7,206 nt of DNA from Candidatus Latescibacterota bacterium (GTDB lineage Bacteria > JAAXHH01 > JABIQT01). Position numbers and translations under genes: made by a program. The stretch spans positions 1-7,206 of the forward strand of contig JABIQT010000391.1 in assembly GCA_018667995.1 (NCBI GenBank), in the 5' to 3' direction. The number at the start of each line of letters is the position of its first letter. Positions within the stretch are counted from its first letter, which is position 1. This document shows, piece after piece, positions 1,907 to 7,206 of this stretch. The notes beneath the pieces were generated by a model, which was not told the DNA's origin, did no database searches, and saw nothing but the letters and a program-made list of their open reading frames with translations.

Positions 1907-3064
1907 ATGAGAATAGCTCTGTATGGGCCGTATCTGTACCAGTTGGCCATGGGCCTCAGAGAGAACTCAGAGAACGAGGTCAGGCTATTTCTTGACGAGG
2001 AAACGCTTCCGCGGTCATTGCTTGATGAGTTGGCAGTTCGAGACCGGGGTTTTGTCGAGGTTGGCCCTTGGGCAACCCGAAAAGCGATTATCAGACCTCA
2101 CAAGGCTCCGATAACCAGGCTAATGGCCGAGTACGATGTCATCTTGGCAACCGAGCTAGGGCCAATCTTTGCCCAGTACACCCAGACCAGGTTCTTCTTT
2201 ATACCGAGCGGATGGGACCTGACCTCAGGGCCATTCCCGATTCGGACGCGTTCACTCAGGACTCGTGGGGCAGGTGACGTATCCGCCGCGATAGTTGCCT
2301 TACACCTCAGAAAAGGAATACGGGCTGCATCAGGAATATGGGGCGCACCGTTTGCTCCGCTTGTTGATGCAGCCAATAGACTTGGCTGCTCCCTGAGTGC
2401 AGATTTGCCCCAGCCGATTGATACGGATCTATTCGCTCCAAGTGCCGTACCAGTAACGCTGAAACAGCCAAGCACCCTAGAGATCTTTCATCCAACACGG
2501 ATGATATTGTCTCGAGATCCGACCCTCTTTGAAATCGGCCGATGGAAGGGAAATGACATATTGTTTCAGGGATTGGTAGAAACGATAGATCAGGGAATAG
2601 ATGTCAATTTGACTCTAATCGATCGCGGGTCTTCGCCAGATCAGGCATTAGCGATATCGATAATTGATGATTTGGGTCTACAGAGTCACGTCACCTGGTT
2701 ACATTCAGGGTCTGAGAAGGGATTCACCTGGAGCGAACTCGTCCTCCTGTACCAGGCTTCAGATATAGTCGTTGACCAGTTTGGAGGATGGTTCGGTTTG
2801 GTGTCTCTTGAGGCCGCCTCTTGTGCAAAACCGGTGATCAATCACGTGAATAAGGAAGTAATGGATGCCATGCATCCATATGGTCACCCATTTATCCAGG
2901 CTGAGACGTCTAAGGAAGTCAGTGAGAAGATCGAATTGTGTCGCGACCCCGAAACGCGCGCTACGATTGGCAGTGCATCGAGGCAGTGGGTAGTTGAACA
3001 CCATGATCGAAGTACTGTTGGAAGGACATGTGAGACAATCTTGTCCAACGAAGGCTTTAAGTGA
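1907..3064 (+). CDS. GT-B fold glycosyltransferase, divergent GT4-like
   Basis: Probable glycosyltransferase of 385 residues that adds a sugar to a lipid-linked or surface glycan on the cytoplasmic side of the membrane. The C-terminal half carries GT4-type landmarks: PIDTDLF (170-176) at the interdomain linker, GRWKGNDILFQGL (211-223) with the KG pair near the donor phosphates, a Rossmann strand ending HVTWLHSG (261-268), and FGGWFGLVSLEAASCAKPVI (292-311). In the usual EX7E motif the second Glu is present (302), but the first is Gly294. The N-terminus (MRIALYGPYLYQL) lacks the Gly-rich acceptor loop common in GT4. No transmembrane segment is evident. It starts at ATG 75 bases after the aminotransferase, with only a weak purine stretch (GAAAGCG, about 1889-1895) upstream. 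Donor and acceptor cannot be assigned. Confidence 0.8.
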   Translation: MRIALYGPYLYQLAMGLRENSENEVRLFLDEETLPRSLLDELAVRDRGFVEVGPWATRKAIIRPHKAPITRLMAEYDVILATELGPIFAQYTQTRFFFIPSGWDLTSGPFPIRTRSLRTRGAGDVSAAIVALHLRKGIRAASGIWGAPFAPLVDAANRLGCSLSADLPQPIDTDLFAPSAVPVTLKQPSTLEIFHPTRMILSRDPTLFEIGRWKGNDILFQGLVETIDQGIDVNLTLIDRGSSPDQALAISIIDDLGLQSHVTWLHSGSEKGFTWSELVLLYQASDIVVDQFGGWFGLVSLEAASCAKPVINHVNKEVMDAMHPYGHPFIQAETSKEVSEKIELCRDPETRATIGSASRQWVVEHHDRSTVGRTCETILSNEGFK

Positions 3065-3166
3065 GAGTTGACCAATCTTGGAGAGTAGATGTCGGTGTGT
3101 TTCCAGTAGTTAGCCAATGATGGGAAATCTAGTGATAACCATCGCATCTTAGACTTGGACTAGACA

Positions 3167-3880
3167 ATGATAGGGATATTATCCGATGCTCATGGGAATA
3201 TCGATTCGTACGAGAGAGCGATCGCCCTAATTGATGAGGTTGGAGTGGATGAACTCTATTTCTTAGGAGACGCAGTCGGATACGTGCCCTCTTTGGATGT
3301 TCTTGATCGGTTGATGGGGCGGGATAGTTATGTGAAGTGCATTCTTGGTAATCATGAGGATATGATTATCAAGGCTAGTAGTGATGACTGTCAAGAAGAG
3401 ATATATCAACTGGGTTTTGTGCGGAGCATAATGAGTGATGTCCAACTTAGATATATCAGTCGCTGGCCAATCAAGATTGAACGTGAGACCTTTGGTTTAA
3501 GAGTACTGTATATTCATGGAAGCATCCTTGAGCCAACTCACGGATACGTCTATCCAGACTCGGAGTTGTCTTCCTTGAACAATGAATATGACTACGTATT
3601 CATGGGAAATACTCATCGTCCTTTTATTCGCAAGCTAAGATCTACTACTCTGATAAACGTTGGCAGTTGTGGACTTCCACGTGACGATGGCCGATATGGC
3701 TCCTTCGCTCTTTTTGACCCAAGTGAGCGAACCGTTGAGATTATTCGTTACAACATTGAGAATGATTCAGTAGACTTAGAGTCTGCGGAGGGTTCGGTGC
3801 ATTCATCGGTACTAGAGGTCCTGGCTAGGCGAGCGCCTCAAGGAACGCTAGTTGGCACCGTTGTATCAGAGGAATCATGA
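3167..3880 (+). CDS. Calcineurin-like metallophosphoesterase, YfcE/MJ0936 type
   Basis: Two-metal phosphoesterase of 237 residues, probably cytoplasmic as no signal peptide is seen. The family hydrolyses phosphodiesters or phosphomonoesters; the substrate here is unknown. Motifs in order: SDAHGN with Asp7 and His9, GDAVGY with Asp35, GNHED with Asn62 and His63, His117 in YIHGS, and MGNTHRPF (146-153). The last is normally GHTH or GHxH; here Asn148 replaces the first His while His150 is kept, so the site probably binds its second metal differently. SCGLPRDDGRYGSFALFD (167-184) is also typical of this subfamily. The ATG gives MIGILSDAHGN, which fits family N-termini exactly, though no strong ribosome-binding site precedes it. 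The stop overlaps the ATP-grasp start by 4 bases (ATGA), implying coupled expression and a joint function. The gene is more AT-rich than the left and right flanks. Confidence 0.92.
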   Translation: MIGILSDAHGNIDSYERAIALIDEVGVDELYFLGDAVGYVPSLDVLDRLMGRDSYVKCILGNHEDMIIKASSDDCQEEIYQLGFVRSIMSDVQLRYISRWPIKIERETFGLRVLYIHGSILEPTHGYVYPDSELSSLNNEYDYVFMGNTHRPFIRKLRSTTLINVGSCGLPRDDGRYGSFALFDPSERTVEIIRYNIENDSVDLESAEGSVHSSVLEVLARRAPQGTLVGTVVSEES

Positions 3881-4935
3881 TCAATGTGCTTGTTACTGCC
3901 GTTGGTGGTAATGGCAACGGTTCGCAGATTCTGAAGGCTCTCGTAATGGCGGAGAACGGTGCCCCTGGCTATTATAGAATATATGGTACAGACCGTCATC
4001 AGTGTATGGATGGCCTAGCACTTGATGGTCGATTTGCTCAACTACCTGATGCCACGTCGCCTGAGTATTTGCCAAGTGTGTTGAAACTCTGCTCTCACTG
4101 GAACGTCGACGTTCTGTTTCCTGGTAGTGATGCAGAGCTATTTGTATTCGCCGAAAATATGGAGTCTTTCATTGATCTCGGCGTTTGTGTTCCGATCCAG
4201 AGAAGGGAGTTGATTGAATGGTGCCGTACCAAGGTATGTATTCAGAACCATATGCTCCGTCTTGGCATTCCTGTTCCTCAATCCTATAGTGGCGATACAC
4301 CGTACGAACTTAATAGGTTAGATAATTACCCCTATATTCTTAAACCTACGGAGAACGGTGGTGGATCGAGAGGCGTATATATCGCTCAAGATTACGAAGA
4401 AATACGAAATCTGTTTGGATATCTGAAACTCAAACCGGAAAGTCCGGCCTATATCCTTCAAGAATATATTGGAAAGACGGACTCCGAGTTCTCGGTGGGA
4501 ATACTCCATGATGGAGATGGCGTCTATGTGGGTGGAGTGGCCCTAAATCGCGACCTAACTACGAATTTGAATATCGCTATCCGAATCAGAAATATATCAA
4601 AACGACAGGATCTCGGCGCGGAGCTTATTGTCAGTTCCGGTATCAGCCAGGGCCGAATAGGTGGTTATCTAGATATCGTAGAACAATGCCGAAATATTGC
4701 CGAGACACTTCTATCAACCGGGCCTCTCAATATTCAGTGCCGAGTGGTTGAGAATAAGGTCATTGTGTTTGAGATCAATCCGCGCCTTTCGGGTTCTACG
4801 TCCCTACGTGCATTGGTTGGATTCAACGAGCCTGATCTTCTTGTAAAACGATTTCACCAAAGGGATGTACGGTCTAAGCCACAAGGTATAGAGAGTGTCT
4901 ACATTACTCGGAAGTTGATTGAAATTGTAGAATGA
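3877..4935 (+). CDS. ATP-grasp ligase, carbamoyl-phosphate-synthase-like
   Basis: ATP-dependent ligase of 352 residues that would activate a carboxylate as an acyl phosphate and join it to an amine (or similar nucleophile). The N-terminal pre-ATP-grasp Rossmann part starts VLVTAVGGNGNGSQILKAL (4-22) and continues through VDVLFPGSDAE (77-87). The ATP-grasp core has ILKPTENGGGSRGV (154-167) with Lys156 for ATP phosphates, LQEYI (194-198) at the adenine hinge, and NIQCRVV (285-291) followed by FEINPRLSGSTSLRALVG (298-315), where Glu299 and Asn301 are the expected Mg ligands. All key residues look intact. It overlaps the phosphoesterase by ATGA. There is no second CarB-like half, so it is a stand-alone ligase; similar proteins occur in surface-glycan loci. 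One natural guess is attachment of an amino acid to a uronic acid or an amino sugar, but the substrate is inference. Codons are AT-leaning, with runs such as AGAAATATATCA. Confidence 0.9.
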   Translation: MINVLVTAVGGNGNGSQILKALVMAENGAPGYYRIYGTDRHQCMDGLALDGRFAQLPDATSPEYLPSVLKLCSHWNVDVLFPGSDAELFVFAENMESFIDLGVCVPIQRRELIEWCRTKVCIQNHMLRLGIPVPQSYSGDTPYELNRLDNYPYILKPTENGGGSRGVYIAQDYEEIRNLFGYLKLKPESPAYILQEYIGKTDSEFSVGILHDGDGVYVGGVALNRDLTTNLNIAIRIRNISKRQDLGAELIVSSGISQGRIGGYLDIVEQCRNIAETLLSTGPLNIQCRVVENKVIVFEINPRLSGSTSLRALVGFNEPDLLVKRFHQRDVRSKPQGIESVYITRKLIEIVE

Positions 4936-5013
4936 TCGCTCCCATAGTTGCGGCAGTTGTGGTCTTATAATGTAACAAGTATTTGACTGAACGTCAATTC
5001 ACTCAATTATAGA
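4936..5013. other. Convergent intergenic stretch between ATP-grasp and methyltransferase genes
   Basis: These 78 bases separate the ends of two genes that face each other, where terminators would be expected. I see only a weak 5-base inverted repeat (TTGAC/GTCAA, 4983-4987 and 4993-4997) without a clear T run, so no terminator is called. The octamer TCTTATAA at 4963-4970 recurs on the far side of the methyltransferase gene inside the 17-base tandem repeat. Confidence 0.5.
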
Positions 5014-6240
5014 TTAGATTCGATAATTAATGTCACGTTCTCTGTGCTTCTCCGATGCTTCTATGGGTGCCAATGGAGCGCAAGCCCCTGCGATGACTGA
5101 ACTTCCTCGAGAGAACCGACGCACGTTGCCAGCGATTCGCGTAGAGTAACAAGGATTGGAACATATCACGGATAATGATTGCAATTCAATGTGGATGTAA
5201 GTCGCAAATGGGCGTTGTATAGTATGGCCCCACCGTTGGGTGTTCCAGTAACTCTGGTTATCGTCAACAATGTAGTCAATATCAGTTTCCAGTGAGTAAT
5301 CGAGAGCGACCATTCCAGGCCAAAGGCTACCAGTCCCGTAAAGAATAATTGGAATACCTCGGCGCTTGGCGTCGTTGATCGCTCTAGCAGTTGTTTCGAG
5401 ACAGATGTCTAACCAGTTCTGATTTGCCTCGGCGATGGCATACTCCCTTGCAATATGTGCATCGTCTAGCTGACTCAGCTGGACCTTGGACTCAATAGGG
5501 CGTGTTGACTTTCTCAAGAGCCACCACATAGCAACATTGGTTTCGGTTGTAACGGATGCTACTATTGTGAGGCCGACGGAAGAAAATAGTACTGATATGG
5601 TGCGCGGAGTGAATCGTGTCAAGTGATCGGCAATTAATAGATCTAGTGGATTGTTTTCGAAATTTGGAGCTCCGACAAATAGCAGGGCTCCAGGCTTGAG
5701 CAGTTGCACGACCTGTTCGAGGAACGGCTTAGGATCTTCGACGTGCTCGATTACGTTGGTTAGGAGAATTAGGTCAAGATTGTCCTCTAATCCGTAATCG
5801 GATAGATCCTTATAGAGTTCTAGTTTCGAAAGTTCAAAGTCATCCTGCAACAGAAGCATTGCTGTCTGGTTTGGCTCTATACCGACAATTCGGTACGTCT
5901 CGCTATGGCGGGCGAATTCCCGCAAAAGCAATCCACGACCACAACCTACGTCCAAGATTCGGGCCTCAGGTTGCAACTGGTGGTTGCTGAATATGAAATG
6001 CAGAATCCTCTTCGATACCGTTGCCGAGGTGTCGCTGTCAAAGACAACCTGTTCAGCCTCGGGTATTCCTGCATTAAGCGCGTATTGGTCACGGTAGTAA
6101 CTCTTGGAGTCGCCCCGCGTACCAAGGCGATTTATTATCGTTGCCGAGTTATGGCAGAAAGTGTTTAGTGTCCGAAGGGATACTACTCGTCCGTCGGATG
6201 TCACGGAACGGGGATAATCGGAAAGGATCGTGTTGGTCAC
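5014..6240 (-). CDS. Class I SAM-dependent methyltransferase with C-terminal Rossmann-like domain
   Basis: Probable sugar or glycan methyltransferase of 408 residues. The SAM fold has motif I ILDVGCGRG (95-103), the acidic ribose contact Glu122 in GIEPN, NVIEHVEDP (162-170) and LKPGALLFVGAPN (181-193), then DHLTRFTPRTISVLFSSVG (205-223), a Methyltransf_23-type pattern. After a helical linker comes a second domain, IILYGTGSLWPGMVAL (298-313) and IDYIVDDNQ (321-329), whose layout recalls the C-terminal domain of sugar C-methyltransferases (NovU/TylCIII type). Unlike those, the N-terminus has a single Cys (29) and no zinc-binding CxxC pairs. The start is GTG at 6240: an in-frame TAA in the upstream repeat rules out a longer protein, and AAGAAG about 8 bases upstream is a modest ribosome-binding site. 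It lies on the opposite strand to every neighbour and is AT-leaning, suggesting separate acquisition. O- versus C-methylation cannot be decided. Confidence 0.88.
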   Translation of the reverse strand: MTNTILSDYPRSVTSDGRVVSLRTLNTFCHNSATIINRLGTRGDSKSYYRDQYALNAGIPEAEQVVFDSDTSATVSKRILHFIFSNHQLQPEARILDVGCGRGLLLREFARHSETYRIVGIEPNQTAMLLLQDDFELSKLELYKDLSDYGLEDNLDLILLTNVIEHVEDPKPFLEQVVQLLKPGALLFVGAPNFENNPLDLLIADHLTRFTPRTISVLFSSVGLTIVASVTTETNVAMWWLLRKSTRPIESKVQLSQLDDAHIAREYAIAEANQNWLDICLETTARAINDAKRRGIPIILYGTGSLWPGMVALDYSLETDIDYIVDDNQSYWNTQRWGHTIQRPFATYIHIELQSLSVICSNPCYSTRIAGNVRRFSRGSSVIAGACAPLAPIEASEKHRERDINYRI

Positions 6241-6247
6241 TGGCGAC

Positions 6248-6281
6248 TTCTTATAACATAGGAGTTCTTATAACATAGGAG
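6248..6281. repeat. Perfect 17-base tandem duplication upstream of the methyltransferase
   Basis: The unit TTCTTATAACATAGGAG occurs twice back to back (6248-6264 and 6265-6281) with no mismatch. It ends 8 bases before the methyltransferase start as read on the minus strand, where the unit reads CTCCTATGTTATAAGAA. That strand contains TATGTT and TATAAG, loosely -10-like, and a purine stretch near the start codon, so the duplication could double a promoter element or an operator, or could be simple slippage. On the plus strand the second copy creates AGGAGG, but only a 7-codon frame follows it. Confidence 0.9.
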
Positions 6282-6612: not shown

Positions 6613-7206
6613 ATGACCAGTTCAGTGACCGTCGTCGGTCTTGGCTATGTGGGTCTTCCCCTTGCCCAGGAGGCATGCCGATCGGGGCTCGCTATAACCG
6701 GTCTCGATACCAATCAGTCCGTCGTTTCCAGCCTGATGGAAGGGGCATCACATGTCGACGACCTTGACTCGACCGATATCGCGGACATGCTTGGGGCTGG
6801 TTTTGTTGCTTCGGGGGATTCAGCCTGCATAGGCAACTCGGATGTCATCGTCATCTGTGTCCCGACCCCTCTCGACGAGGACGGAACGCCTGACCTGGGA
6901 GCCGTCAAGGCTGCTACCAGGACCGTCTCAGAGCATCTGCAGCCGGGCTCGCTCGTGGTCCTCGAATCGACCACCTACCCGGGGACGACCGAAGACACGG
7001 TCAGGCCCCTTCTCGAGGATGGGAGTGGGCTCACAGCGGGCATCGACTTCAGCCTGGCCTATTCGCCAGAGCGGATAGACCCCGGTAACCCGGAGTGGGG
7101 CCTGCGCAACACGCCCAAGATCGTCGGTGGGCTGACGGCGGACTGCACCGAGCGGGCCGTGCAGTTCTACGAGAAAATCGTCGACACCGTCGTACCGACC
7201 GTTGGG
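6613..7206 (+). CDS. wbpA: UDP-N-acetylglucosamine 6-dehydrogenase-type nucleotide-sugar dehydrogenase, 3'-truncated by window edge
   Basis: First 198 codons of a UDP-Glc/GDP-Man dehydrogenase-family enzyme, which oxidises C6 of a UDP-sugar to a carboxylate with two NAD+ in the cytoplasm. The frame stays open to the right edge. Visible motifs: the dinucleotide-binding loop GLGYVGLPLA (9-18), Asp32 for the NAD ribose, CVPTPLDEDGTPDL (82-95), LESTTYPGTTE (117-127) with the catalytic-region Thr/Glu, SPERIDPGNP (151-160) and TPKIVGG (167-173). ESTTYPGTTE and SPERIDPGN favour the UDP-GlcNAc dehydrogenase (WbpA/TviB-like) branch over the UDP-glucose branch (Ugd); UDP-ManNAc dehydrogenase (WecC) is less likely. 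The catalytic Cys and Lys lie beyond the window. ATG 6613 has no strong ribosome-binding site but places the Rossmann strand correctly. Its G+C is clearly higher than that of the middle genes (40/60 counted at 6901-6960). Confidence 0.93.
   Translation, partial: MTSSVTVVGLGYVGLPLAQEACRSGLAITGLDTNQSVVSSLMEGASHVDDLDSTDIADMLGAGFVASGDSACIGNSDVIVICVPTPLDEDGTPDLGAVKAATRTVSEHLQPGSLVVLESTTYPGTTEDTVRPLLEDGSGLTAGIDFSLAYSPERIDPGNPEWGLRNTPKIVGGLTADCTERAVQFYEKIVDTVVPTVG

Follow-up and report, generated by a model that had tools for sequence, protein, structure and literature searches.

The 7,206-nucleotide window analyzed here (the whole stretch of DNA under study) constitutes contig 341 of a fragmented, 6.06-Mb, 85%-complete assembly of “Candidatus Latescibacterota.” Its forward strand opened with a 5'-truncated gene for a Gfo/Idh/MocA sugar dehydrogenase resembling UDP-GlcNAc 3-dehydrogenase (positions 3 to 716; assigned from Pfam, NCBIfam, and the nearest structure), followed by a GTG-initiated gene for a DegT/DnrJ/EryC1 sugar aminotransferase (713 to 1831) and a gene for a GT4 glycosyltransferase (1907 to 3064), both assigned from Pfam and NCBIfam. 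Next came the two genes of interest, also on the forward strand: a 237-amino-acid metallophosphoesterase (MPE) of the Metallophos_2 family with a SapH/3rqz-like fold (3167 to 3880; Pfam and fold), which is the putative partner phosphatase, and a 352-amino-acid ATP-grasp ligase of the PRK12767/NF009402 family (3877 to 4935; Pfam, NCBIfam, fold, and alignment). As originally predicted, the two reading frames overlapped, sharing the stop/start tetranucleotide ATGA at 3877 to 3880. A convergent gene for an S-adenosylmethionine-dependent methyltransferase (Methyltransf_23) lay on the reverse strand (5014 to 6240; Pfam), and the window closed on the forward strand with a 3'-truncated gene for a UDP-glucose/ManNAc-type nucleotide-sugar dehydrogenase, an enzyme that makes uronic acids (6613 to 7206; Pfam and NCBIfam). 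The neighbors of the pair were thus sugar genes, in keeping with its predicted placement within a nucleotide-sugar and glycosyltransferase locus.

The Gfo/Idh dehydrogenase and DegT aminotransferase genes (3 to 1831) themselves overlapped by GTGA, and the nearest solved structure to the dehydrogenase was 7bvj; they resemble a UDP-GlcNAc 3-amino-sugar pair that may serve either a glycan or lipid A. An AT-rich island at positions 2500 to 6250 (GC content of about 0.43 to 0.49 versus 0.53 to 0.59) spanned the MPE/ATP-grasp pair as well as the methyltransferase gene and is consistent with lateral acquisition. The AT lean attributed to the pair was accordingly real but not specific to it, because the low-GC stretch, at about 2.5 to 6.2 kb when set against a GC content of 0.53 to 0.55, included the next gene. 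The intervals separating the pair from its neighbors in the window revealed no terminator-like site. A relative of the window methyltransferase adjoined the ATP-grasp gene in another pair-bearing locus (L005), and a weaker relative adjoined the MPE gene in two more (L003 and L006).

The ATP-grasp protein matched the Pfam families ATPgrasp_Ter, PylC-like_N, and ATP-grasp_3, with the TupA-like family absent among its Pfam matches at an E value of ≤0.001. It scored 267.7 bits against NCBIfam NF009402 (PRK12767.1-1), above the curated cutoff of 218; the name of that family, “carbamoyl phosphate synthase-like,” is a label rather than a tested function. Across an alignment of 49 sequences, Lys119, Asn301, and Arg303 were invariant in all rows, and Lys156, Glu204, Gln287, and Glu299 were kept in 41 to 48 of them; by analogy with carbamoyl phosphate synthase (CPS), we take these Lys, Glu/Gln, Glu-x-Asn, and Arg positions to be those that bind ATP and Mg. 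Judged by these residues, the protein is predicted to be a catalytically competent member of the ATP-grasp superfamily. Its predicted model (pLDDT of 78.7) was matched best by structure 2pn1 (Z of 25.7), after which biotin carboxylase, GAR synthetase, PylC, and other carboxylate ligases were nearly level. A role in a Ter operon, as the name of PF15632 might suggest, was rejected: there were no ter genes among the annotated neighbors, and the name refers to the domain only. No relative of the protein was found in phage records, nor was a second copy found among 16 genomes of the window's own phylum at an E value of ≤1e-20.

The MPE scored 65.5 bits against Metallophos_2 (E value of 7e-18; gathering cutoff of 27) and 49.2 bits against the YfcE phosphodiesterase family TIGR00040, below the curated cutoff of 56.25. 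Its metal-ligand set (DxH, GD, GNH[DE], H, GHxH) was complete save for one position: motif V reads GNTH (residues 147 to 150; positions 3605 to 3616, forward strand), and its first His is replaced by Asn148, whereas a metal-ligand His stands there in the other 12 of the 13 MPEs under comparison. Asn148 may itself serve as a metal ligand; the substitution could be genuine, weakening or altering the metal site, or could reflect a sequencing error of the draft assembly. The original prediction had described two intact catalytic genes; the conserved catalytic residues of the ATP-grasp bear this out, but the description is not fully supported for the MPE because an Asn replaces a metal-binding His. 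The predicted model (pLDDT of 83.8) had 1nnw, 2gju, 3rqz, and SapH as its nearest folds. SapH, which is both a phosphodiesterase and an asymmetric Ap4A hydrolase, was the closest characterized relative (Z of 22.5), with YfcE lower (Z of 17.3). Given the activity of SapH, the MPE may instead cleave a nucleotide.

A total of 84,980 species genomes were scanned with patterns drawn from the ATP-grasp only, ignoring the MPE; the patterns were obtained by aligning the window protein with its relative in the deltaproteobacterium Smac51. Five relatives were recovered at 34 to 41% identity: those of a proteobacterial metagenome-assembled genome (MAG) (Pseudomonadota), Sedimenticola hydrogenitrophicus, Smac51 itself, Chryseosolibacter histidini (Bacteroidota), and a Micrarchaeota MAG. 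All five loci encoded an MPE of the same subfamily, 28 to 41% identical to that of the window over the alignment. In four of them the MPE gene lay directly upstream of the ATP-grasp gene; in the Micrarchaeota it lay downstream, with two genes between. All five relatives carried the MPE although it had played no part in finding them, an association far beyond chance. In each of the four relatives' genomes checked, the MPE subfamily had a single strong copy, located near the ATP-grasp gene, and a 4-base overlap (ATGA or GTGA) joined the two genes in 7 of the 9 loci with a directly upstream MPE, the window included. The five loci also carried DegT aminotransferases, sugar epimerases, and methyltransferases, or nearly this combination, and three of them an AsnB-type amidotransferase. 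In Smac51, several radical-SAM genes adjoined the pair-bearing glycan locus, which resides on a 65-kb plasmid (L003, 15061 to 19885). The close ATP-grasp group is rare: large samplings of Gammaproteobacteria, Bacteroidota, and the phylum Micrarchaeota yielded a strong match only to an already-known genome. On the basis of this sporadic distribution and the glycan character of the loci read, a housekeeping role for the pair was rejected, and nothing was found that ties either gene to such a function.

Adjacency extended to deeper branches of the ATP-grasp family, where MPE genes adjoined ATP-grasp genes in L027 and L030 and lay one gene away in L026 (Acetoanaerobium); MPE neighbors on the deeper branches occurred in Bacteroidota, Gammaproteobacteria, and Clostridia. 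The prediction that the two genes would prove adjacent across unrelated glycan loci was thereby borne out, and they make up a real, conserved module shared by several phyla of bacteria and by one genome from the archaea. Elsewhere on these branches, a nonhomologous protein occupied the place of the MPE: a PHP protein beside the ATP-grasp in L028 and a HAD_2 protein in L029, both being families composed mostly of phosphomonoesterases. In a wider set of 38 further ATP-grasp loci from Gammaproteobacteria and Bacteroidota, an adjacent, codirectional phosphatase gene was present in 22 (16 HAD, 3 MPE, and 3 PHP), and no phosphatase was detected in the stretch examined for 14. Phosphatases made up 22 of 64 adjacent genes versus 4 of 221 other genes in the same stretches of these 38 loci (P = 1.6e-12, a value inflated by relatedness); after thinning to one locus per cluster (45% identity, 18 clusters), the proportions were 10 of 31 versus 2 of 113 (P = 2.8e-6). 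Pfam scans of the adjacent genes and of a sample of the other genes agreed with this enrichment.

A tree of 49 ATP-grasp sequences grouped the window protein with those of L004 to L006 and L008 (support, 99/93). Its clade was mostly MPE paired but also included HAD and PHP partners and four NAD-epimerase fusions; the other clade was mostly HAD paired, although PHP proteins had been swapped in at places and some members were unpaired. The partner changes required on this tree numbered at least nine; therefore, phosphatase activity, and not a particular protein, seems to have been retained. Such swaps among unrelated phosphatases suggest that the function kept beside the ATP-grasp is the removal of phosphate. 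DegT aminotransferases and sugar epimerases recurred across the loci. In four Bacteroidota loci (L093, L094, L100, and L104), the ATP-grasp was fused at its C terminus to an NAD-dependent epimerase/dehydratase and lay beside a DegT aminotransferase gene, with the epimerase domains of L100 and L104 confirmed by Pfam. In L072 and in two other loci of set A5, a gene for a PIG-L type de-N-acetylase directly adjoined that for the ATP-grasp, a hint that some other acyl group may replace N-acetyl.

We propose that the pair forms a two-step cassette for decorating a surface glycan, in which the ATP-grasp acts as an amide ligase that couples a phosphorylated building block with a uronic acid or an amino sugar and the MPE takes the phosphate off (probability, roughly 0.55). 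In the first step, as its family and conserved active site suggest, the ATP-grasp would convert a carboxylate to an acyl phosphate and then link a small building block through an amide to one of the sugars in the surface glycan, placing either an amine onto the carboxylate of a uronic acid or an acid onto an amino sugar derived from the aminotransferase. The recurrent, exchangeable phosphatase neighbor points to a building block that would arrive as a phosphate ester, and in the second step the coupled MPE would strip this phosphate. Phosphate removal is put forward as the coupled step because MPE, HAD, and PHP phosphatases substitute for one another beside the ATP-grasp; gene adjacency alone is no proof of successive steps.

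Three other explanations were weighed against this scheme. The MPE could be a pyrophosphatase or phosphodiesterase that acts on a nucleotide-activated intermediate (an NDP-sugar or an acyl- or amino-acyl-nucleotide), the ATP-grasp then using the released product and no phosphate-ester block being involved. The closeness of the SapH fold and the abundance of nucleotide-sugar genes in these loci speak for such chemistry, but related loci swap in HAD_2 and PHP proteins, generally phosphomonoesterases, and we consider it unlikely, if not negligibly so. Alternatively, the two enzymes might perform separate tailoring steps on different sugars, their genes being brought together only through the block shuffling of surface-glycan cassettes. 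That would account for the 14 of 38 distant ATP-grasp loci in which no nearby phosphatase was detected and for the genes that intervene between phosphatase and ATP-grasp in L007, L026, and L077. Adjacency, however, far exceeded that of the remaining genes in these loci and survived thinning, the 4-base overlap was recurrent, and adjacency persisted while the phosphatase superfamily changed, all of which makes independent steps distinctly improbable.

The family name of the ATP-grasp raises a further alternative, namely, that the enzyme makes a carbamoyl-phosphate- or carboxy-phosphate-type product, with the module carbamoylating or carboxylating a sugar and the phosphatase trimming a by-product. 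Profile matches to carbamoyl phosphate synthase and the presence of CPS and biotin carboxylase among the fold matches agree with the name. Yet the protein has one ATP-grasp domain in its 352 amino acids, with no counterpart to the second half of the large CPS subunit; PylC and similar amide ligases are about as near in fold; and the name is that of a family rather than of a demonstrated reaction. We regard this alternative as very unlikely.

No report of an MPE/ATP-grasp pair was found in the open-access literature searched, which fits the description of the module as previously undescribed. ATP-grasp amidoligases were reportedly surveyed by comparative genomics by Iyer et al. in 2009, and archaeal AglU places threonine on a ManNAcA derivative; no usable open-access paper was found on AglU as the same enzyme as the window ATP-grasp, and a lead concerning nonulosonates in Tannerella yielded nothing. 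The best structural match, 2pn1, belongs to the same PRK12767/NF009402 family, but it carries only the title “carbamoylphosphate synthase large subunit,” and the family is without an assigned reaction. PylC and the L-amino-acid ligases BL00235 and YwfE share the ATP-grasp fold and form an amide from a free carboxylate and an amine, but they act on small molecules and are only 15 to 18% identical to the window protein. SapH, the Sphaerobacter metallophosphoesterase 3rqz, and YfcE share the fold and motifs of the window MPE; unlike these, the window protein has GNTH as motif V, and none of the three was found linked to a glycan ligase. In Clostridium difficile RT027, a carbamoyl-phosphate-synthetase-like ATP-grasp, CDR20291_0245, is likewise encoded near a sugar aminotransferase, there FdtB-like, and its mutant lacks the terminal peptidylamido-sugar of type B flagellin (PMC5207246). 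That protein belongs to another ATP-grasp Pfam family (PF13535), however, and a phosphoesterase is absent from its described neighbors.

The closest parallel in logic is provided by the experimentally characterized capsule locus of Campylobacter jejuni HS:2, in which the ATP-grasp domain of Cj1438 (Cj1438C) amidates GlcA with serinol phosphate or ethanolamine phosphate, after which Cj1435, a HAD phosphatase, takes off the phosphate (PMC11800379). The window pair likewise combines an ATP-grasp (a predicted amide ligase) with a putative phosphatase in a surface-polysaccharide locus. Its parts differ: the ATP-grasp of Cj1438C is TupA-like and forms a fusion with a glycosyltransferase, whereas the window protein has no TupA match, and the partner is an MPE rather than a HAD protein. 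The best reading by analogy is that the window pair follows the ligase-phosphatase logic of C. jejuni as built from different families. With the conserved adjacency and the exchangeable phosphatases, this parallel favors the general idea of the original prediction, that a ligase and a phosphoesterase jointly decorate a glycan. More tentatively, and with the odds somewhat against so broad a claim, PRK12767-family ATP-grasps of surface-glycan loci in several phyla might share a hitherto unrecognized chemistry of ligating a phosphorylated block and then dephosphorylating it, with MPE, HAD, and PHP proteins interchangeable in the second role. Genes for “carbamoyl phosphate synthase-like” ATP-grasps lie dispersed among surface-glycan loci and have no assigned reaction; the recurring phosphatase partner would give them a specific, testable chemistry and provide a means of predicting glycans with amides formed from phosphorylated precursors. 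If so, many glycan modifications await discovery, and the serinol system of C. jejuni would be one case of a widespread principle.
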